From Patagioenas fasciata (taxonomy: Eukaryota > Chordata > Aves > Columbiformes > Columbidae), in NCBI RefSeq assembly GCF_037038585.1, contig NC_092520.1:12779001-12843000 (forward strand): a DNA stretch of 64,000 nt, written 5' to 3'. Within the stretch, counting starts at the first letter, position 1. Each line of letters opens with the position of its first letter. The translations under genes were made by a program, and so were the position numbers. The notes beneath the pieces are model-generated. The model saw nothing but the letters and a program-made list of their open reading frames with translations. It was not told the DNA's origin and did no database searches. This document shows positions 7,601-58,976 of the stretch, piece after piece.

Positions 7601-10239
7601 GCATGAAGATTTGGATAAACACCAATCATCCAAGTTTCAATTGGCATACTTTTTTTTTTTTTTTAATAATTAGTGGCACGTTTGAGACACTTGGCTAGAG
7701 ACTGAAATCCTGTTATCTACCCGCAAAAATCAAACCAGGCAAAAAGGCAGATAAAGCACAGAGTAAGCCTCACCGGTGAATGCCTTTTCCTGGTTTGGCT
7801 TGGGGCAGCTCACCCGCTCTCCTCTCATACTGTGCTAACAGTCTGAATGCAATAGCAGAACTGAAGAAATAATGCTGAGCTGCACGTGTCTCTAACACAG
7901 CAGGGAGGGAGGACGAGACCCTCAGCTACACGGCAGGAGCGCAAAGCTGGACCCCTGGGGATGCCCCTGCAGGTTCTGCAGACTTCAGGGAAAAAAATGG
8001 TTTAAAAAAAGCAAAGAAAAAAATCTCCAAGGGAAAAAAAACATCTTTTAAAAAACCTTATTAAAAAATAAGAAACCCCCTCTGGCCAGCAAAACCTCAA
8101 AGCAACCACAAGTGGGGAACGATGGGTAAATGAATTACAAGCCGACTTCACTCTATTTGCATGCTGTAGCAGAATTCAGAAACTGCTGGTCAAGGTGAGG
8201 CTGGGAAGCTCAAGAAGCCAGTGTGATTCCCAGGCCCACACCTATGGGATCGGCACAGGAGAAAGCCCCAGACTCTATCTCTTAAGCAGATGAGATCTCA
8301 GCTTTTGCCCAGATAAGAGCCCTGGGATCCCCATTCCCTGAGTATCTTGTCATGCTCGTGTTGCCTGGCAGGCACATGATGCTTTCCGGGCAGCCCAGCA
8401 CATCCTCAGCAATGCTGTGCTCTGCCCTCCAGCCTGTGTGCAGGAGAGACTAACCAGGGCTGTGAAATGGGTTTGTGCCAGCTGGAGAAACAGAACAGAC
8501 GCGAACCTCTGATAATCGCTGCAAATTGTTCTAATTGTTTTCTGCTCCATGTTTATTTAAAGGCCTTTTGCTCTGTTTCTGACTAGACAGGAACTGAGTG
8601 TCTCACCACTCAGTGGCCCTTTTATGTTTTGATAAGGGTATGGCTTTTTTTAAAATATACGATTGCAAGGTAAATGTAAAAAAACTAATAATACTTCTAT
8701 TAAATTATTTGCAAATGTGTTCTGTCCCTACCCAGCACACAAAGCCAAAAAAGCCAATGCAATAACCATTCAAAAATATGGTTAATACACAGTCTGCCCA
8801 GATCACCTGAAGCGGTCTAATCTAAACAGAGCTGCATGAGCCTTGAGAGCAAACATTACACCCACCTGCAGCACAGTGCAAGGCCATCGTGCACTGCTGA
8901 TTGCAAAACCAGATCCTTCACACCCAGTACAACATGCACAGAGGAGGGTACTGGTGCTGCTCAAAGTGCAGCAAGTTTGCTGTCCCTGGCACGCTGCTGC
9001 TGCACTCCAAAGTATTCACCTGGCTGAGAGTCAAAGCTGCTGTAGCAACACAGCCGGGCCTGCAGCGTGCTGGGCAATGAGTGGAAAAGGGCTGGCAGTG
9101 AGGAGCCTCCAAGCAGGCTTTCTAAAATGGGGGGACAGCTCCAAATTGGAGCTCTACCACTCAGGGCAGAGTTTCTTCACCCTTCAGTGTCACCTGGATG
9201 ATGAAGGAGACAGCGGAACGTGTCCAAACGAACTCCCCCGGTGGCACTGCCCACCTCAATTCCCAGGCATGGGGGGGCTGCAGCCTACTTCGGCTGTCAC
9301 TTGCAGAGGACTGGCCGGCTCTCCGTGTGCTGCCCTGTCCCCCCGCACCCCCGCGGGGCGCTGGGTTAAAATCCACCTTCCCTTAAGTACCTTTCAGTAC
9401 TTAAAAGGGGCCGGTAAGAAAGATGGGGACAGACTTTTTAGCAGGGACTGTTACAACAGGAGAAGGGGTAACGGTTTTAAACTGAAGCAAGGGAGATACA
9501 TGAGGAAGAAATTTTTTGCAACGAGGGCGGTAAAGTACTGGAACGTTTGCCAGAGAGGTGGTAGATGCCCCATCCCTGGAAACGTTCAAGGCCGGGCGGA
9601 ACGGGGCTCTGAGCAACCCGATCTGTTTGAAGATCTTCCTGCAGGGGGCTTGGACTGGATGACCTTTGAAAGTCCCTTCTCATCCAAACTGTTCTATGAT
9701 TCCGTGATTCCCTCTTCGCCGCTGCGCTTCCCTAGCATGAGCTGAAGCCCTTCGGGCTGGTTAAAAGGAATTTATTTCCTCCTCCATGCTTGTTCCCGCC
9801 GTCACTGGCAAAGCCGCGGGGAGGCGGCTGCTCGGGGCTGTCCCCGCCGGAGCGGCTGGGGGGCTCGTCCCCCCGCGGCCGCAGCTCCCCGGGCGGGCTG
9901 CAGCCCTGGGCTAGCCCCGCTCCGCTCCCCCGCTTCATCAGAGCCTTACCAGACCGTTTGCAGCCTCCGGAGCGCAGCGGTGACTGCCCGAGCCCCCTTA
10001 CCTCCCGTCCCCAGCCCCTCCCGCAGGTCTCCGGGCTCCCGCCGGGTCAGGCAGGGCTTTCGCCGCATGCCGGGGGTAGCGCGGCGAGGAAGAGGAGGAG
10101 GAAAGAGCCGGGGGAGGAAGCGGAGGAGAGAAAGGGCCGGAGTCGCACACTTACTCTGCAGAGCCCACCCGGCGGCCAGGCAGAGGGTGACGGTCCCCAC
10201 GACGACGCCCCGTCCTCGGCAGCCCTGGAGCGGTCTCAT
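4640..10239 (-). CDS. VSTM5: V-set and transmembrane domain-containing protein 5
   Basis: Single-pass type I membrane glycoprotein of the Ig superfamily; the mammalian protein is brain-expressed and linked to neuronal membrane protrusions (family knowledge). Exons on the reverse strand are 10239-10155, 6821-6492, 6392-6252 and 4683-4640. All junctions are phase 1, all introns are GT-AG, and the total is 600 nt, 199 codons plus stop (human is about 200). Residues 1-28 form the signal peptide. Residues 30-138 form the Ig V-set domain, with Cys58, the W80 region and the R112-D-A-G-Y-Y motif. Sequons are at N43, N87 and N101. The transmembrane helix is about 147-168, followed by a basic stop-transfer stretch with the HKL motif. 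The tail ends STTEEIELDTIEC, close to the human end. Oddity: the usual second Ig cysteine position is Phe118, and the alternative cysteine of the human DRVC motif is Thr97. Identification is firm from similarity along the whole length. Confidence 0.95.
4684..6251 (-). other. VSTM5 intron 3
   Basis: GT-AG intron of 1,568 bp. It contains no recognisable repeat or other gene; the open frames inside it are short and without features. Confidence 0.85.
6252..6392 (-). CDS. VSTM5: VSTM5 exon 3 (transmembrane segment)
   Basis: Acceptor CCCTGCAG ends at 6393; donor ACAG|GTATCT follows 6252. Encodes the juxtamembrane motif EIIYEDLHFVAV, the membrane helix and the start of the cytoplasmic tail. The intron separating it from exon 2 is only 99 bp. 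Confidence 0.94.
6492..6821 (-). CDS. VSTM5: VSTM5 exon 2 (Ig V-set domain)
   Basis: Acceptor TTTCAG ends at 6822; donor TATG|GTACAA follows 6492. The exon carries the whole Ig domain, codons 29-138 plus one base. Translation past the donor hits a stop within three codons, which supports splicing here. Confidence 0.94.
6822..10154 (-). other. VSTM5 intron 1
   Basis: GT-AG intron of 3,333 bp. Its exon-1 end is GC-rich and still part of the CpG island. It holds a CR1 3' fragment (9389-9711) and an A-rich stretch at about 7990-8075. Nothing else is recognised. Confidence 0.85.
9389..9711 (+). repeat. CR1 LINE, 3'-end fragment
   Basis: The translated relic includes the CR1 ORF2 C-terminal signature (KKDGDRLFSRDCYN, then FKLKQGRY and KKFFATRAVKYWN). 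It is followed by the typical CR1 3'UTR wording GGCTTGGACTGGATGACC and the terminal CTATGATTCCGTGATTCC. It is 5'-truncated, carries frame breaks, and lies within VSTM5 intron 1 about 450 bp from exon 1, antisense to the gene. Confidence 0.9.
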
Positions 10240-10600
10240 CAGAGAGAAGCCGGTGCCCCAGGGCTTGCATTTAAGCGGCTGGGCCGGCCAGCGCGGCCCG
10301 ACCCCGGGGGCTGCCCGCCCCGGGCCTCTTCCTCGCTCTTCTCCCTCCTCTTCCTCCCCCTCCTGCCGCCGCGCCGGTCGCTGCTCCCCCCGACGCCCGC
10401 CGCACCGGCCCCCGAGCTCTCCCACGCCTCACACCCCGCGATCCTCCGATACGGATTGAGGATGCAATTGGCTGAGGAAGGGAAAGCGCTGCCCGGCCGG
10501 CTGCCATCGCCCCAGCCAGGAAATGGGCGCTAATGGGCGGCGGGGGGGGCGCCCTGCCCACTGTGCCGCTTCCCAGCGCGGGGGCGAGCCGTGGCCAGGG
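9785..10600. promoter_or_regulatory. VSTM5: CpG island over VSTM5 exon 1
   Basis: About 800 bp dense in CpG, including many CCGCGG, GCCGGG and CGGCCGC-like motifs, centred on VSTM5 exon 1 and its upstream flank. Base composition contrasts sharply with the AT-rich DNA on either side. No TATA box is obvious, so a dispersed CpG-type promoter firing on the minus strand is the natural reading. The boundaries are by eye. Confidence 0.75.
10155..10239 (-). CDS. VSTM5: VSTM5 exon 1 (signal peptide)
   Basis: ATG at 10239-10237. The exon encodes 28 codons of a hydrophobic leader beginning MRPLQGCRGRG and ending ALQ, plus one base. Donor is CAGA|GTAAGT at 10154-10149. It lies inside a strong CpG island. 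Confidence 0.92.
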
Positions 10601-10631
10601 CTGGGGACACTCCATCAAGGATGCTTTTTGC

Positions 10632-10655: not shown

Positions 10656-11345
10656 ATGATGGCTAAGGAAACACCCATCTGCAAGGGAAATTTCCCGTCG
10701 GGGTGTTAAAAAGAACTTTGTCGCCCCGAGGAGTCTGGCGATGTTGCGGGTGAGATGGCGGGGCTGGGCAGCAGCATCTCTGTGTCCCCAGGGTCATCTC
10801 AGATGACCACGCTGGAAAATGAGCCTGGTTCCCATCCCACCGTACCCAGCACAAGCACTGTGTGTTCATCTCTTCCTTCCAACGTCTTCCAGAGGACGTC
10901 CCTAGAAATGCTTGTTTTTCTTTTGGACAGTGTGAGTTAGGGGGAAATGTGATTAGAAAACATCCAAGTGCCCCAGTCCTGAAAATTCATCCTTGCTCAG
11001 GGGCAAATGCTACAGAAGCAATATGCACCCCCAGGGTGGGGAAAGAGTTAAACAAAGCTGGCTGGTGCTGATCGGAGCCAGCGCAGCGAGAGCCAGAGCC
11101 GGCGAGGTTCAGTCGACTACGAGGTTTAGCCGAGATTAGAAAGCCCAGAGGGAAACGTACAGGGACAGCGTGACTCCCGGCGGTCCTGATCCCCCCGAAG
11201 CCCCGGTAGCCATTGCGAGAGAGCAGCTGACGTGGCGGGGGGCGTTCCCACGGTGACGGCGACCACACCTCCTCCCCTTGCCTTGAAAAAACCTTTGGGA
11301 GGGGAGCGACTAGTCGCTGCCCACCAGGTGCAGAGAGGAGCAACT

Positions 11346-11384
11346 AGCTAGCGCAGCGGGTGTGGCAGCTAGCGCAGCGGGGTG
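11346..11384 (+). repeat. Tandem 21-bp direct repeat in the CR1 5'UTR
   Basis: AGCTAGCGCAGCGGG occurs at 11346-11360 and again at 11367-11381, both followed by a short TG-containing spacer. It lies just before ORF1, in the region where an internal CR1 promoter would be expected. That role is inference. Confidence 0.8.
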
Positions 11385-11449
11385 CAGAGAGCACTTGTTG
11401 TTTGTCATTCCCACCGACTTATTGCCAGCGTCCCAGACCGCTGGTGACC

Positions 11450-12574
11450 ATGGTCGCCTCCAGAAGGAGAGCATGTCTCAAAAAGACTGTGGCAACGCAG
11501 ACTGAAGTTCTGTCCCAAACGGTGGCTGTTCAGGTCTCCGGCTGCAAGGAGTGCCAGAGCCTGCTGCTGCCGGAGGAGGGAGGCCAGCACTCTACTTGTG
11601 TGAGGTGTGAGCAGGTGCAAGATCTGCTCGACATGGTTGTGAAGCTTAAGGAGGAGGTTGAGATGCTGAGGTCCATCAGGGAGTGCGAAAGGGAGATCAA
11701 CTGGTGGAGTAACACCCTTACGTGCCGGTCGGAAAGGCCCCAGGGAGGTACCCCCGAAAAGGAGGTGGACCTCCTGCCCTCCCGGACAGAGGCGGAGGTC
11801 CTGAGACAACCCCACCCTTGTCGCTGTCGGGCAGAGGTAAATGACCTAAAAGAAGATGAGGGTTGGAAGCTTATTCCAGTTCGCCATCACGGGCAGCCCC
11901 CCTCCCTGCCTGATTTGCCTCCCCAGGTGCCCCTCCGTAATAGGTTTGAGGCCCTGGATCTTGAAGAAGAGGTAGGTGAGGAGGTGGTGCCAAGCCTGCC
12001 TACAAGATCACATAGGAAGAGGCGGTTGACTACACAACTGAAGACTACCTCTGATAAGAAAGATAGAAGGGTGATTGTAATAGGAAATTCCGTTCTGAAA
12101 GGAACAGAGGGCCCAATATGCAGGGTTGACCCTCATCTTAGGGAAGTCTGTAGTCTACCTGGAGCCCGGATCAAGGATATTGCTAGAGAGCTCCCCAGAC
12201 TGGTGCACCCGACAGACTACTACCCACTGCTGGTCTTCCAGACAGATGGGGAGGAAGTTGCTTCCCGTAGTCTGAGGGGAATGAAGAATGACTTCAAGGT
12301 CTTGGGAAGGATGGTAAAAGATTCAGGGGCTCAAGTGATCTTCTCTTCACTCCTTCCCCCTTCAAGTGACGATGTGGGGTGGAATGGGAAAATTCAATCT
12401 CTAAATGGTTGGCTCCAAGACTGGTGCTACAGGCAGGGCTTTGGTTTTTTTGATAATGGCTGGTTTTATAAGACTCCAGTCCGGACAGTGTTATGCAGGA
12501 AAGGCTTATCTCGCAGAGGCAAAAGGATGCTGGGGCAGGTATTAGCTGGGCTCATTTGGAGAGCTTTAAACTAG
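11450..12574 (+). CDS. CR1 ORF1 protein (coiled coil, Cys motifs, SGNH-esterase-like)
   Basis: Nucleic-acid-binding or chaperone-type protein of a CR1 LINE, 374 codons from the ATG at 11450 in the context GTGACCATGG. The frame stays open 30 codons further upstream (to 11360), but 11450 has the better start context. Seen in order: a basic N-terminus, paired cysteines CKEC and CVRC, a heptad-rich acidic/leucine stretch likely to form a coiled coil, a linker, and a C-terminal domain with [12 protein letters not shown]. The last resembles the GDS serine block of the SGNH esterase fold known in ORF1 of the CR1/L2 clade, with [13 protein letters not shown] as a later block. Its end overlaps ORF2 by 82 bp, suggesting re-initiation or leaky scanning for ORF2. 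Confidence 0.88.
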
Positions 12575-15462
12575 GCTCGAAGGGGGATGGGGTTGTAGTT
12601 GGGCTTGCCCCAGTGGGGCAGCATTCTAAAACAGATGAGGACCGGGTGGCCTCCTGTGCCCCTAGGGAGAAATTGGTGTGCTCTGCTCGCTCCCTGAAAT
12701 GCCTGTACACCAATGCGCGCAGCATGGGGAATAGGCAGGAGGAGTTAGAATCCTATGTTCGGTCGGGAGATTATGATCTGGTGGCAATTACAGAAACGTG
12801 GTGGGACAGTTCACATGACTGGAATGTGGTCATGGATGGCTACGCCCTTTTCAGGAAAGACAGACCAGCCAGGTGTGGTGGTGGAGTTGCTCTCTATGTG
12901 AGAGAGCAACTGCAATGTACTAAATTCTGCCCAGGAGCGGATGAGGAACGAGTTGAGAGTGTATGGGTCAGGATCAAGGGACAGGCTGGCAGGGGTGATA
13001 CTGTTGTAGGTGTCTATTACAGGCCACCAGATCAGGCTGAGGAAGTTGATGAGGCCTTCTATGCGCAGCTGAGAGTGGCCTCACAGTCACAGGCCCTGGT
13101 TGTTGTGGGTGATTTTAACTTCCCTGATGTTTCCTGGAAGGACCATTCAGCCAGCCAGCCACAGTCCAGGAGGTTCCTCCAGTGCATTGATGATAACTTC
13201 CTCATGCAGATGGTGGAGGAGCCGACCAGGAGAGGTGCGCTGCTGGATCTCATCCTCACTAACAAAGAGGGTCTGGTCGAAGCAGTAAAGGTTGAGGGCT
13301 GCCTGGGTTGCAGTGACCACGAGATGGTGGAGTTCAGCATCTCGTGTGGCAGGAACAGAATAGCAAGTAGAATTGCAACCCTGGACTTTGGCAGGGCTGA
13401 TTTCGGCCTTTTCAAGCAATTGCTGGGGGAAATCCCATGGGCAAGACTGCTTGAAGGAAAAGGGGCCCAAGAGAGCTGGATTGCATTCAGAGATTGCTTC
13501 TTCCATGCTCAGGATCAGAGCATCCCCACACGTAGGAAGTCGAGGAAGGGAGCCAGAAGGCCTGCGTGGTTGAATAGGGATCTGTTGGGTATGCTCAAGC
13601 AGAAGAGGCGAGTTTACAGGTCATGGAAGCAGGGACTGGCCACTTGGGAGGAATATAAGGCTGCTGTTAGAGGATGCAGGAAGGCAGCTAGGGTAGCCAA
13701 GGCCTCCTTAGAATTACAGCTGGCGAGAGGGGTCAAGGACAGCAAGAAGAACTTTTTCAAATACATAGCAGATAAAACTAATACCAGAGGCAATGTAGGC
13801 CCACTGATGAATGAGGTGGGAGCCCTGGTGGCAGAAGACACAGAGAAGGCAGAATTGCTGAATGCCTTCTTTGTCTCTGTCTACGCCGCTGGAGGCTGTC
13901 CTGGGGAACCCTGTACCCCTGAGACCCCGGATGAAGCCAGGTTAATGGAGGAGTTTGCTTTAGTCGATGAGGACTGGGTTAGGGAACAATTAAGTAGTCT
14001 GGACGTCCATAAATCCATGGGTCCAGATGGGATGCACCCGCGGGTGCTGAGGGAGCTGGCTGAAGTCATTGCTAGACCGCTATCCATCATTTTTGCCAAG
14101 TCTTGGGAAACGGGAGAGGTGCCCGAGGATTGGAGGAAAGCAAATGTCACTCCAGTCTTTAAAAAGGGCAAGAAGGAGGACCCGGGTAATTATAGACCGG
14201 TCAGCCTCACCTCTGTCCCTGGGAAAGTAATGGAACAGCTTATCCTTGGTGTCATCTCAAGGCATATCAGGGATAAGAGGGTCATTAGGGGCAGTCAGCA
14301 TGGCTTTACCAAGGGTAAGTCATGCTTGACCAACCTCATAACCTTTTATGAGAATGTAACAAGGTGGATGGATGATGGCAGAGCGGTGGATGTGGTCTAC
14401 CTTGACTTCAGTAAAGCCTTTGACACAGTCCCTCACAGCATCCTCACAGCTAAATTGAGGAGGTGTGGTCTAGACAATAGAGTAGTGAGGTGGGTTGCAA
14501 ACTGGCTTAAAGAGAGAAGCCAGAGAGTGGTGGTCAATGGTGCGGAGTCCAGTTGGAGGCCAGTATCTAGTGGAGTGCCTCAGGGGTCAGTACTGGGGCC
14601 AATATTATTCAATATATTCATTAATGATTTAGACGAGGGAATTGAGTGTACTATCGGCAAGTTTGCTGATGACACTAAGCTGGGAGGAGTGGCTGACACG
14701 CCAGAAGGCTGTGCTGCCATCCAGCGGGACCTGGACAGACTGGAGAGTTGGGCGGGGGATAACCTGATGGAATTTAACAAGGGAAAGTGTAGAGTCCTGC
14801 ATCTGGGCAGGAACAATCCCAAGTTCCAGTATAGGTTGGGGCATGACCTATTAGAGAGCAGTGTAGGGGAAAGGGACCTGGGGGTCCTGGTGGACAACAG
14901 GATGACCATGAGCCAGCACTGTGCCCTTGTGGCCAGGAAGGCTAATGGCATCCTTGGGTGTATTACAAGGGGGGTGGTCAGTAGATCGAGAGAGGTCCTC
15001 CTTCCCCTCTACTCCGCCCTGGTGAGACCCCATCTGGAATACTGTGTCCAGTTCTGGGCCCCTCAGTTCAAGAAGGACAGGGAACTGCTGGAGAGGGTCC
15101 AGCGCAGGGCAACAAAGATGATTAAGGGAGTGGAGCATCTCCCTTATGAAGAAAGGCTGAGGGAGCTGGGGCTCTTTAGTTTGGAGAAGAGGAGACTGAG
15201 GGGTGACCTTATTAATGTTTGTAAATATATAAAGGGTGAGTGCCACGAGGATGGAGTCAGGCTCTTCTCAGTGGCAAACAATGATAGGACAAGGGGCAAT
15301 GGGATCAAGCTGGAACACAAGAGGTTCCACTTAAATTTGAGAAAGAACTTCTCAGTGAGGGTAACAGAGCACTGGAACAGGCTGCCCAGGGAGGTTGTGG
15401 AGTCTCCTTCCCTGGAGACATTCAAAGCCCGCCTGGACACATTCCTGTGCGACCTCACCTAG
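12493..15462 (+). CDS. CR1 ORF2 polyprotein (AP endonuclease and reverse transcriptase)
   Basis: Retrotransposition enzyme of 989 codons with no stop or frameshift. The apurinic-like endonuclease spans about residues 68-300, with [10 protein letters not shown] (71-80), the catalytic ITETWW with Glu101, VYYRPP (174-179), GDFN (206-209) and the SDH triad at 274-276. The reverse transcriptase spans about 490-800, with [22 protein letters not shown] and the catalytic FADD at 724-727. The C-terminal region carries [16 protein letters not shown] and a Leu/Arg-rich tail typical of CR1. An alternative start at 12724 would cut into the endonuclease, so the upstream ATG, or initiation coupled to ORF1, is more likely. 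All recognised catalytic motifs are present, so the enzyme may be functional (inference). Confidence 0.92.
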
Positions 15463-15552
15463 GCGTTCCTGCTCCAGCAGGGGGATTGGACTAGATGATC
15501 TTTTGAGGTCCCTTCCAATCCCAAACATACTGTGATACTGTGATACTGTGAT

Positions 15553-51600: not shown

Positions 51601-54600
51601 AGCAACCATCTCAATCTTTAGCATCATTTCGAACAGGAGGAAGTCGGAGGCATTATTTACTTTATGTGGGTTGAAGTAAACTAGCTTTGTCCCCACTCTG
51701 TCTTCAGCATGGCTTCACCAAGGGCAAGTCCTGGCTGACAGACCTAGTGGCCTTCTACGATGGAGTAAATATATCAGTGGGCAAAGGAAGGGCTACGGGT
51801 CTTATCTATCTGGACTTCTGTAAGGCCTTTGATGTGGTCTCCTACAACATCCTTCTCTCTAGATTGGAAAGGTATGGATTTGATGGGTGGACTGTTCGGT
51901 GGATGAGGAATTGGCTGGATAGTCACACCCAGAGAGTGGTGGTCAATGACACAATATCTGGATGGACACTGGTAATAAGTGGTGTCCCTCAGGGGTCCAT
52001 ATTGGGACCAGTACTGTTTAATATCTTAATCAATGACATAGACGGTGGGATTGAGTGCAGCCTCAGCAAATTTGCAGATGACACCCAGTTGAGTGGTACA
52101 GTTTACATGCCTGAGGGACAGGATGCCATCCAGAGGGACCTGGACAAGCTTGAGAAGTGGACCCATGAGGTTCAACAAGGCCAAGCACAAGGTCTTGCAC
52201 CTTGGTCAGGGTCAGGGCAACCCCTGGTATCAATACAAGCTGGGGGATGAAGGGGTTGAGAGCAGCCCTGCGGCGAAGGACTTGGGGGTCCTGGTGGATG
52301 AAAGATTGGACATGAGCTGGCAATGTGCACTTGCATCCTGGAAGGCAAATTGTGTCTTGGGCTGTATCAGAAGGAGCGTGGCCAGCAGATGGAGGGAGGT
52401 GATTCTGCCCCTCTGCTCCGCTCTGGTGAGACCCCACCTGGAGTCCTGTGTCCAGCTCTGGAGCCCTCAGTGCAGGAAAGACATGGACCTGTTGGAGAGG
52501 GGCCAGAGGAGCCACAGAAATGATCAGAGGCTGGAACAGCTCTGCTGGGAGGACAGGCTGGGAGAGCTGGGGTTGTTCAGCCTGGAGAAGAGAAGGCTCT
52601 GTGGAGACTTTATTATGGCCTTTCCAGTACTTAAAAGGGGCCTATAAGAAAGATGGGGACAGAATTTTTAGCAGGGCCTATTACAATAGGATAAGTGGTA
52701 ATGATTTTAAACTGAAAGAGGGGAAATTCAGGCCACATATGAAGAAGAAATTTTTTACCATCAAGGTAGTGAAACACTGACCCAGGTTGCCCAGAAAGGT
52801 GGCAAATGCTCCATCCCAGGAGACATCCCAGGCCAGGCTGGACGGGGCTCTGCGCAACCTGATCTAGGTGAAGATGTCCCTGCTCATGGCAGAGAATTGG
52901 ACTAGATGAGATTTGAATGTCCTTTCCAGCCCAAACTGTTCTATGATTTTATGATGTAGCTAAGTGCTTCAGCACTTTTCCTGGGTGAGTATGATTTCGC
53001 TCATATCAGTGCCTGCAATATCATAACATTCTTGTTGGCTAACTGAGTTCTCAGCCCTAGCCCAGGGACGCTGTAGATCAAGATCTTCTTCTGCATTTCC
53101 CTGACATGGCTGTTGATGGTGGTGTGATGGTTTGTCACTGTGTGTTTCCAGCTGCTGAGCAGCCATTTAAGAGCTATTGCACAAACCCTGTAGTGCCATT
53201 TCAACACATAAATATCCACTTACCCCACATCTGTTAGCGCAACATCCTGCTCCACCTGCTCCCAGCATCATGAATGCCGGCAAAAGAACCTGTGAGAAAA
53301 GCACAAGCTGAATTTGTGTGCAGTACTTCTGCTGGGATGGTTTTTAAAGTTTAGAAGCTGGGGCATCATGTTCCTCAAATACAAACCACTACCTGCTTCT
53401 TCTCTGTGAGTTACACCTGCTGAGATGTTGGTGTTTGCTGAAGAGTAACTCAGGAAAAGTGTGGGATTACAGCTAGAGCTGGCTGGCAAGTTTCTGGTAC
53501 AGTAATTCTGGCTGCTGAAGCTATACTGCTTCTTTCCAGCAGGGCTTTGTCGTCTTTTTCCAGGAACAAAAATGTCGGTTTGGGCAAAATGGTATTTCTA
53601 CTCAGAAAAGATGCGTTACTGGAGTAAGAATTGTGTCAGTTTTAATCTTCTAGGCATCCTGCTCTGGATTATAATTGGGAAATCAGTCTTAAACTTCCTG
53701 AAACACACTTGATTTTGGTTCCTTGTTCTAAGCTTCTTGGAAACCTACAAAATGGACCTCACTCAACAAGGAATTCCCAGTTCAGTTCAGCTTTTTCAGA
53801 GTAATTATCAGGTGGAGCTGGACTGATACAATGGAGTCAGCAACCATCTGTGTCTCAGGATATAATGCCGCCTTACAGAGGCACTCGGGAGATAGGAAAA
53901 GCTGCATTTAGGTTGGTGGCTAGAGGGCAAGAAGGCTTCTGTGGGTGCAGCTGTGTAGCCAGAGCACTCCTGCTGCCTGGCCTCTGCCCACCACTGCTTG
54001 TGTAGGCATCTCACAGAGCAACGCAAGGAAAGACGTATTTGATAAAGTTGGAAATGGTCCCTGTAAAGTTAATGAAAGAAGAAGACACACACCCACCCCA
54101 AACAAACAATCAAAATGGTAAAAGCCATAAAAATGGTTTGACTATGTTTTGGAGAGAAGCCCCACATAGGACAGAAAGAGTAGAATGTCCATGGTGAATG
54201 AAGCCCAGTGAATTTATGTGTGTAGTGTGAATATTCCTGTTAAACTGTGAAGGACAGTGTTATGAAACCTGATTAGGTTTGCAGGCTGCTAAATATTTTC
54301 CAATGGATTAGCTCTTCATTGCCTTTAATGCACACCCCAGGGGCAGCCTCCAGCACTTGCAGTGGGTGCTGCACCACAGCTATGGAGACCTGCAGGGGTA
54401 GAGCAGTAATGTTAAAGAGATGTTCCTCTTCCTGGAAATAAGTCACCCCTTAAATAATCACAGGTGGTCCCTACGGTAGCCTCAGTCCCAATGTGTCATG
54501 GTCTGGCACTCAGGAGAGCTAATAGCTCTGTGCTTCAAACCAATGCACCCTTTCCTCCAGGGCTGTCTTTCCTCTTTGGAGGTTTCCCATCTAAGCTGTG

Positions 54601-58924: not shown

Positions 58925-58976
58925 TTTGCATTTCTATAGCAAAATATTTGCATTTCTATAGCAAAATATTTGCATT
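58925..58976. repeat. 22-bp tandem duplication
   Basis: The unit beginning TTTGCATTTCTATAGCAAAA occurs twice exactly, at 58925-58946 and 58947-58968, followed by a partial third copy. Confidence 0.95.

Follow-up and report, generated by a model that had tools for sequence, protein, structure and literature searches.

According to the available part of PMC4316615, avian CR1 copies are mostly short, which is what an earlier note on the DNA studied here had also held. The further notion that a full-length intact CR1 is exceptional in birds does not hold, since the part of PMC8665684 at hand describes numerous such elements in kiwis, parrots, owls, shorebirds, waterfowl, two woodpeckers and others. 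The avian families treated in the same part (CR1-J, -X, -Y, -E, -C, -Z and -W) share with the element described below an endonuclease (EN) and a reverse transcriptase (RT) in one open ORF2, a 3' octamer array, and copies that are mostly 5'-truncated; recent bursts are a further common trait, full-length copies being numerous in some orders. Their typical octamer, ATTCTRTG, is one base off from the ATACTGTG of our element. For ORF1, type IV of CR1 subgroup 7 (PMC4120745, as far as its available text goes) combines a zinc finger/leucine zipper with an esterase, and the window ORF1 has the same order, a zinc-finger-like stretch followed by an esterase-like domain; it differs in that the catalytic residues are incomplete and the Pfam zinc matches lie below the cut-off. 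In the zebrafish element ZfL2-1, hydrolysis by the ORF1 esterase is abolished when either the serine or His282 is altered by a point change, as stated in the consulted portion of PMC3905857.

Extent and anatomy of the element

The window, namely the whole stretch of 64,000 nucleotides from Patagioenas fasciata that was analysed, holds on its forward strand a CR1 LINE copy of near full length (4,486 bases, 11067..15552), with boundaries set by alignment with copies at other loci; all features given below lie on this strand. The assignment to CR1 LINEs follows from an APE endonuclease and an RT in one frame, a 3' octamer microsatellite, and dispersed copies that are truncated to different extents at the 5' end but share their 3' end. 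Rfam gave 0 matches in the window. The earlier note had placed a full-length CR1 at 11055..15552; its CR1 LINE anatomy stands, but the start moves to 11067 and the 5' end is not complete. The three of 40 other copies that keep the 5' end (L009, L013 and L022) have GTCAGCTGATCGG there, while the window copy has only GCTGATCGG after unrelated flank, and therefore it is short by at least 4 bases (GTCA).

The 5'UTR that had been proposed is present at 11067..11449; it is CpG-rich, with a GC content of 0.63 and a CpG observed/expected ratio of 0.79; it is common to the three copies just named and is probably the internal promoter region. Within it lies a variable 21-bp repeat (11346..11381, repeat family D2), with 2 units in the window copy and, counted by eye, 3 units in L009 and L013 and 5 in L022. 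On a larger scale, L013 has two tandem 5'UTR units that are 238 bases apart, and in the inner one the start sequence GTCAGCTG is preceded, at a distance of about 30 bases, by a TATA-like TTTAAAA. Mouse L1 has monomer promoters, which the tandem units of L013 resemble, their promoter role being putative; the difference is that such units are found in one of the three other 5'-complete copies and are missing from the window copy.

Both reading frames are uninterrupted, in agreement with the earlier note. ORF1 (11450..12574, from the ATG at 11450 through the stop) encodes 374 aa, and ORF2 (12493..15462, again with the stop) encodes 989 aa counted from the first Met and shares 82 bases with ORF1, read in a different frame; neither contains an internal stop or a frameshift. 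Measured from stop to stop, the longest frame of the element spans 996 codons, while in 300 dinucleotide-block shuffles the median is 155 and the maximum 363. In ORF2, the APE-type endonuclease domain (aa 74-276, 12712..13320) is identified by Pfam PF03372 (Exo_endo_phos, E 5e-16) together with its motifs, and the reverse transcriptase domain (aa 560-778, 14170..14826) by Pfam PF00078 (RVT_1, E 3.2e-33) and by a match to L1 ORF2p (8sxt, E 2.7e-20). The endonuclease residues and the FADD, the latter at aa 724, are in place as claimed before, and no inactivating substitution is seen at the endonuclease and RT motifs checked in ORF2.

Downstream, the 3'UTR (15463..15526) has predicted RNA hairpins, which are not better than those of shuffled sequences (fold z -1.17, with 26 of 200 shuffles folding at least equally well). 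The element ends with the terminal octamers already noticed, an array of ATACTGTG x 3.25 at 15527..15552.

Copies of the family and recent activity

A first look at the host genome (1.45 Gb) gave 3,395 unscored candidates for the 3' part of the element. On the whole, 41 copies were read, including the window copy; they were chosen by likeness to it, so the rates given here are not family-wide. The 40 other matches that were scored have 98-99% identity to the window 3' part and vary in their truncation, with 5' starts of the 41 copies ranging from 11067 to 14282 and a shared 3' end; near-identical relatives are found elsewhere in the genome. Over 1,266 alignment columns, seven of the 41 copies are identical and have seven different 5' truncation points, showing very recent movement of the family. 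The number of private substitutions per copy over the same columns has a median of 1 and a range of 0-8. These figures support recent CR1 activity in this genome, which the earlier note had claimed for the lineage. The octamer arrays of the copies have 2.25 to 5.1 units and end at all eight phases among 40 copies, as is expected if priming slips along the array.

Long target-site duplications were considered and rejected, as 3 of 40 junctions have a common word of at least 5 bases, compared with 4.0% when the pairs are mismatched, in a test weakened by L009, L013, L022 and L034, whose "5' flank" lies within the element itself or next to an internal gap. Viral contigs searched with ORF1 and with ORF2, and prokaryote contigs searched with ORF1, collections not expected to hold bird DNA, gave 3, 10 and 36 pattern matches and 0 relatives.

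The reading frames bear the mark of selection. For ORF1, dN/dS is 0.22-0.35 in young pairs (window against L022 and L013, and L022 against L013) and 0.25 against an older copy. For ORF2, it is 0.17-0.30 in young pairs (window against L026, L011 and L016, and L016 against L026 and L011), with 0.15 and 0.22 against older copies. These values argue for selection for function up the lineage.

The window copy as a candidate source

That the window copy is a candidate source element, as was proposed, is partly borne out. It is the only one among the 41 copies with complete ORF1 and ORF2 together. On the other side, its 5' end is short, and at 24 of 4,298 covered sites its base is absent from all covering copies, with a depth of 3 copies over most of the 5' part. 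Its 12 private sites in ORF2 comprise seven amino-acid changes and five silent ones, so the window-copy proteins may be weakened. Between it and its nearest sampled relative there are 8 differences in about 1,266 columns; no sampled copy is therefore demonstrably its daughter, and no daughter sharing its variants is found among the 40 other copies read out of the 3,395 first-look candidates. The window copy may be competent at the present day, and the case is evenly balanced against that of a young but inert copy of intact structure, disabled by its private amino-acid changes or by its shortened 5' end, with the sources of the family lying elsewhere. The unique bases, the lack of a daughter among the sampled copies and the missing GTCA speak for the inert copy; against it, the frames show neither a stop nor a frameshift, the motifs checked are unchanged, and the private changes are few, the 3 found in the 1,266 columns being inside the range of the 41 copies.

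The esterase-like domain of ORF1

ORF1 has a zinc-finger-like stretch with a C-x2-C ... C-x2-C motif (aa 32-53, 11543..11608), where the Pfam zinc-ribbon matches are sub-threshold, and then an esterase-like domain (aa 208-343, 12071..12478). The latter is homologous to the ORF1 esterase of zebrafish ZfL2-1 (PDB 4c1b; PMC3905857, as covered by its available part), with E values of 1.5e-8 and 5.6e-9 in two comparisons and with the catalytic Ser and Gly aligned; Pfam found no esterase family in ORF1. The earlier note had reported SGNH-like motifs, and this is correct for the serine and the glycine but not for the rest of the site. Two of the five catalytic positions of ZfL2-1 are kept (Ser214 and Gly238), while Asn195 corresponds to Glu268 and His191 to Gln264. 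The alignment to 4c1b ends at aa 343, and no Asp-x-x-His is seen by eye in aa 344-360 after the domain; read by eye, the motif is missing from every one of the six young copies that reach across the domain, as well as from one older copy. The SGNH hydrolase catalytic set (Ser, Gly, Asn and Asp-x-x-His) is thus incomplete in ORF1. Judged by its sequence, the domain is probably no working hydrolase and would owe its retention to a structural or binding role. A domain that still hydrolyses, with its active site rearranged, is an unlikely alternative: the site retains its serine and glycine and purifying selection acts on the domain, but His282 and Asp279 of ZfL2-1 have no visible counterpart.

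Overall reading and proposed mechanism

It is highly improbable that the window copy is an old one, held open by chance or selection and not recently inserted, for although it differs by 0.75-1.59% from the sampled copies where they overlap, which exceeds the distance between the closest copies, only about 0.43% of its bases are private (12 of about 2,819 from 12734 on), and old CR1 copies within the window are 66-71% identical over stretches of more than 150 bases. We hold with high confidence that the element is a CR1 LINE copy of near full length, from a very young family that would spread in the LINE manner, with an ORF1 esterase-like domain that is kept and is probably not a hydrolase.

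The anatomy, the intact frames and motifs, and the near-identical family with its varied 5' truncations and octamer-array ends are all present. By analogy with studied LINEs, RNA would start in the CpG-rich 5'UTR, the putative promoter, and ORF1p would pack this RNA in a presumed RNP function. ORF2p would then nick DNA and reverse-transcribe from the octamer end, that is, by target-primed reverse transcription, which may often halt early and leave 5'-truncated copies.

Tentatively, and with somewhat less than even confidence, we propose a highly active bird CR1 lineage in which an ORF1 esterase without its catalytic centre is nevertheless under purifying selection, so that hydrolysis would be dispensable for CR1 movement, and in which the 5'UTR may grow by tandem promoter units, each starting a full-length RNA. 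The finding extends the list of CR1 families known from birds by one that was active very recently, and a copy with both ORFs open is usable for studying CR1 movement. The aspect most deserving attention is the ORF1 esterase, conserved but inactive-looking; if it is truly inactive in so successful a family, the need of CR1 for lipid hydrolysis would become directly testable.

Structure of the element

A near-full-length CR1 LINE occupies 11067-15552 of the window on the forward strand. It carries two open frames on that strand, ORF1 at 11450-12574 (374 aa) and ORF2 from its first Met at 12493 to 15462 (989 aa), which overlap by 82 bases in different frames. The longest open frame reaches 996 codons; across 300 dinucleotide-block shuffles the median was 155 and the maximum 363. 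In Pfam, ORF2 matches RVT_1 (E 3.2e-33), Exo_endo_phos (E 5e-16) and Exo_endo_phos_2 (E 1.6e-10), and it also matches the L1 ORF2 protein 8sxt (E 2.7e-20), for the most part over the RT. The endonuclease motifs TNARS, ITETW, GDFNF and SDHE are found and the RT motifs are likewise present, with the residues which we take to be catalytic; the 989-codon ORF2 described in the earlier note is thus confirmed.

That note placed the element start at 11055, which is 12 bases too early, as homology begins at 11067 in each of L009, L013 and L022, the three among 40 other genomic copies that reach the 5' end. All three have GTCAGCTGATCGG there, whereas the window copy has GCTGATCGG behind an unrelated flank and is therefore at least 4 bases short. 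Its 5'UTR has a CpG o/e of 0.79 and a GC of 0.63, and ORF2 a CpG o/e of 0.26. A 21-base repeat in the 5'UTR has 2 units in the window copy, 3 in L009 and L013, and 5 in L022. L013 shows two start motifs spaced 238 bases apart, with a TATA-like box, GGGAGGTTTAAAACCGGCTGAAACTCGAGACTAGCATTGA, about 30 bases upstream of the inner start sequence. These tandem units, carried by L013 alone of the three, resemble the monomer 5' units of mouse L1 and form a putative promoter.

At the 3' end, the expected terminal octamers are present as a ATACTGTG array of 3.25 units. Across 40 copies the array has 2.25-5.1 units (median 3.4) and its end points cover all eight phases, consistent with slippage during priming on the octamers. 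The octamer is one base off the typical CR1 ATTCTRTG given in PMC8665684. Predicted 3' hairpins do not exceed shuffled sequence in stability (z -1.17), 26 of 200 shuffles folding at least as well. No long target-site duplications are found, with at least 5 shared bases at 3 of 40 junctions versus 4.0% of mismatched pairs. Shared words average 1.95 at the junctions and 1.33 in mismatched pairs, so there may be a short duplication.

The stretch 9700-10620 (GC 0.71, CpG o/e 0.78), some 450 bases upstream of the element, is probably a CpG island and perhaps a gene start. The window also contains older CR1 fragments with 66-71% identity to the young element, at 51704-52936 (+) and at 20456-19929, 20835-20633 and 51142-50980 (-), and a perfect 22-base tandem repeat of 2.4 copies at 58925-58976.

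Recent movement of the family

The window is G000:C1:12779001-12843000 of a genome of 1.454 Gb in 359 contigs, whose size, chromosome-scale contigs and type of CR1 point to a bird. We searched this host genome with the 3' part of the window copy, 14300-15552. The search gave 3,395 first-look candidates, not confirmed copies, of which 40 were scored; it tabulated 41 places including the window itself, the remaining ones at 98-99% identity. Besides the window locus L048, we read 40 other copies with flanks on 39 loci (L009-L047), a sample selected by likeness to the 3' part of the window copy. Their 5' starts range from 11067 to 14282 in window numbering, with a single common 3' end. Over 1,266 alignment columns, the 41 copies differ pairwise by a median of 10 and a maximum of 21, and those at L031, L033, L036, L037, L040, L046 and L047 are identical (21 of 820 pairs), although each of the seven is 5'-truncated at a point of its own. 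In these columns a copy has a median of 1 private change (range 0-8; 3 in the window copy). Since identical or near-identical copies differ in truncation point and carry few private changes, the family moved very recently, in agreement with the recent CR1 activity proposed earlier. Full-length, intact CR1s in numbers are known from several bird orders, a single Amazon parrot having 1,125 of full length (PMC8665684), and living birds are also reported to show recent variation in CR1 (PMC13320814); the family adds to these known avian CR1s and is not new in kind.

L042 (G000:C1:195444500-195452500) holds two young copies head to tail with about 1 base between them, the octamer end of the first facing the truncated 5' end of the second. 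The young copy at L034 has an internal deletion between matches to 14091 and 14282. Young copies are present on both C47 (70.5 Mb) and C48 (85.9 Mb), contigs that follow the autosome-like ones but break the size order and are possibly the two sex chromosomes.

Where they overlap, the window copy and the sampled copies are 0.75-1.59% apart. The window copy has a unique base at 24 of 4,298 sites covered by at least 3 copies (largely just 3 in the 5' part). Beyond 12734 the coverage is 18 copies or more, and 12 such sites occur in about 2,819 bases (0.43%). In ORF2, these 12 comprise 7 amino-acid replacements and 5 silent changes. At an avian substitution rate of around 2e-9 per site per year, 0.43% corresponds to about 2 million years, probably an overestimate because closer relatives may lie outside the sample. 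Among the 41 copies, ORF1 is complete, with no stops or gaps, in L013, L022 and the window copy, and ORF2 is complete without stops in L011, L016, L019, L026, L029, L035, L043, L047 and the window copy. The window copy is the only one with both, which favours its proposed role as a source element; against this candidacy stand the shortened 5' end and the lack of a demonstrable daughter among the 40 other copies sampled.

The esterase-like domain of ORF1

According to a 2013 paper, the retrotransposon esterases aligned there show strong conservation of the active-site residues (PMC3905857), so that a loss in CR1 ORF1 is worth checking. None of the titles and abstract openings that we searched mentions such a loss in bird CR1, and we do not claim it as unreported. 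ORF1 aa 208-343 matches 4c1b, the zebrafish ZfL2-1 ORF1 esterase (HMMER, E 1.5e-8); Pfam gives no esterase family for ORF1, just two sub-threshold zinc-ribbon-like matches. The ZfL2-1 site comprises Ser143, Asp279 and His282, plus Gly165 and Asn195; hydrolysis was abolished when either Ser143 or His282 was changed (PMC3905857). ORF1 keeps the Ser (S214) and the Gly (G238), whereas Asn195 corresponds to Glu268 and the transposon-specific His191 to Gln264. Asp-x-x-His is absent from the C-terminal part, which has RKGLSRRG, as read by eye because the HMMER alignment stops at aa 343. Of the SGNH-like motifs noted earlier, therefore, the Ser and Gly stand, along with the 4c1b match, but the Asn and Asp-x-x-His do not.

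The same pattern occurs in all six young copies spanning the domain (L009, L013, L016, L022, L026 and L048), and L047 agrees over the part it covers. It extends to an older copy next to L028, which is 77% identical at the amino-acid level, has one stop and reads QTDGEE and GKALS. The loss of esterase residues is thus characteristic of the family and predates the present burst. For ORF1, dN/dS is 0.22-0.35 when young copies are compared with each other, and comparison with the older copy gives 0.25. The ORF2 values are 0.17-0.30 within the young set and, for comparisons with older copies, 0.15 and 0.22. Judged from these sequences, the best reading is that the esterase-like domain of ORF1 would be kept for binding or structure, not for hydrolysis.
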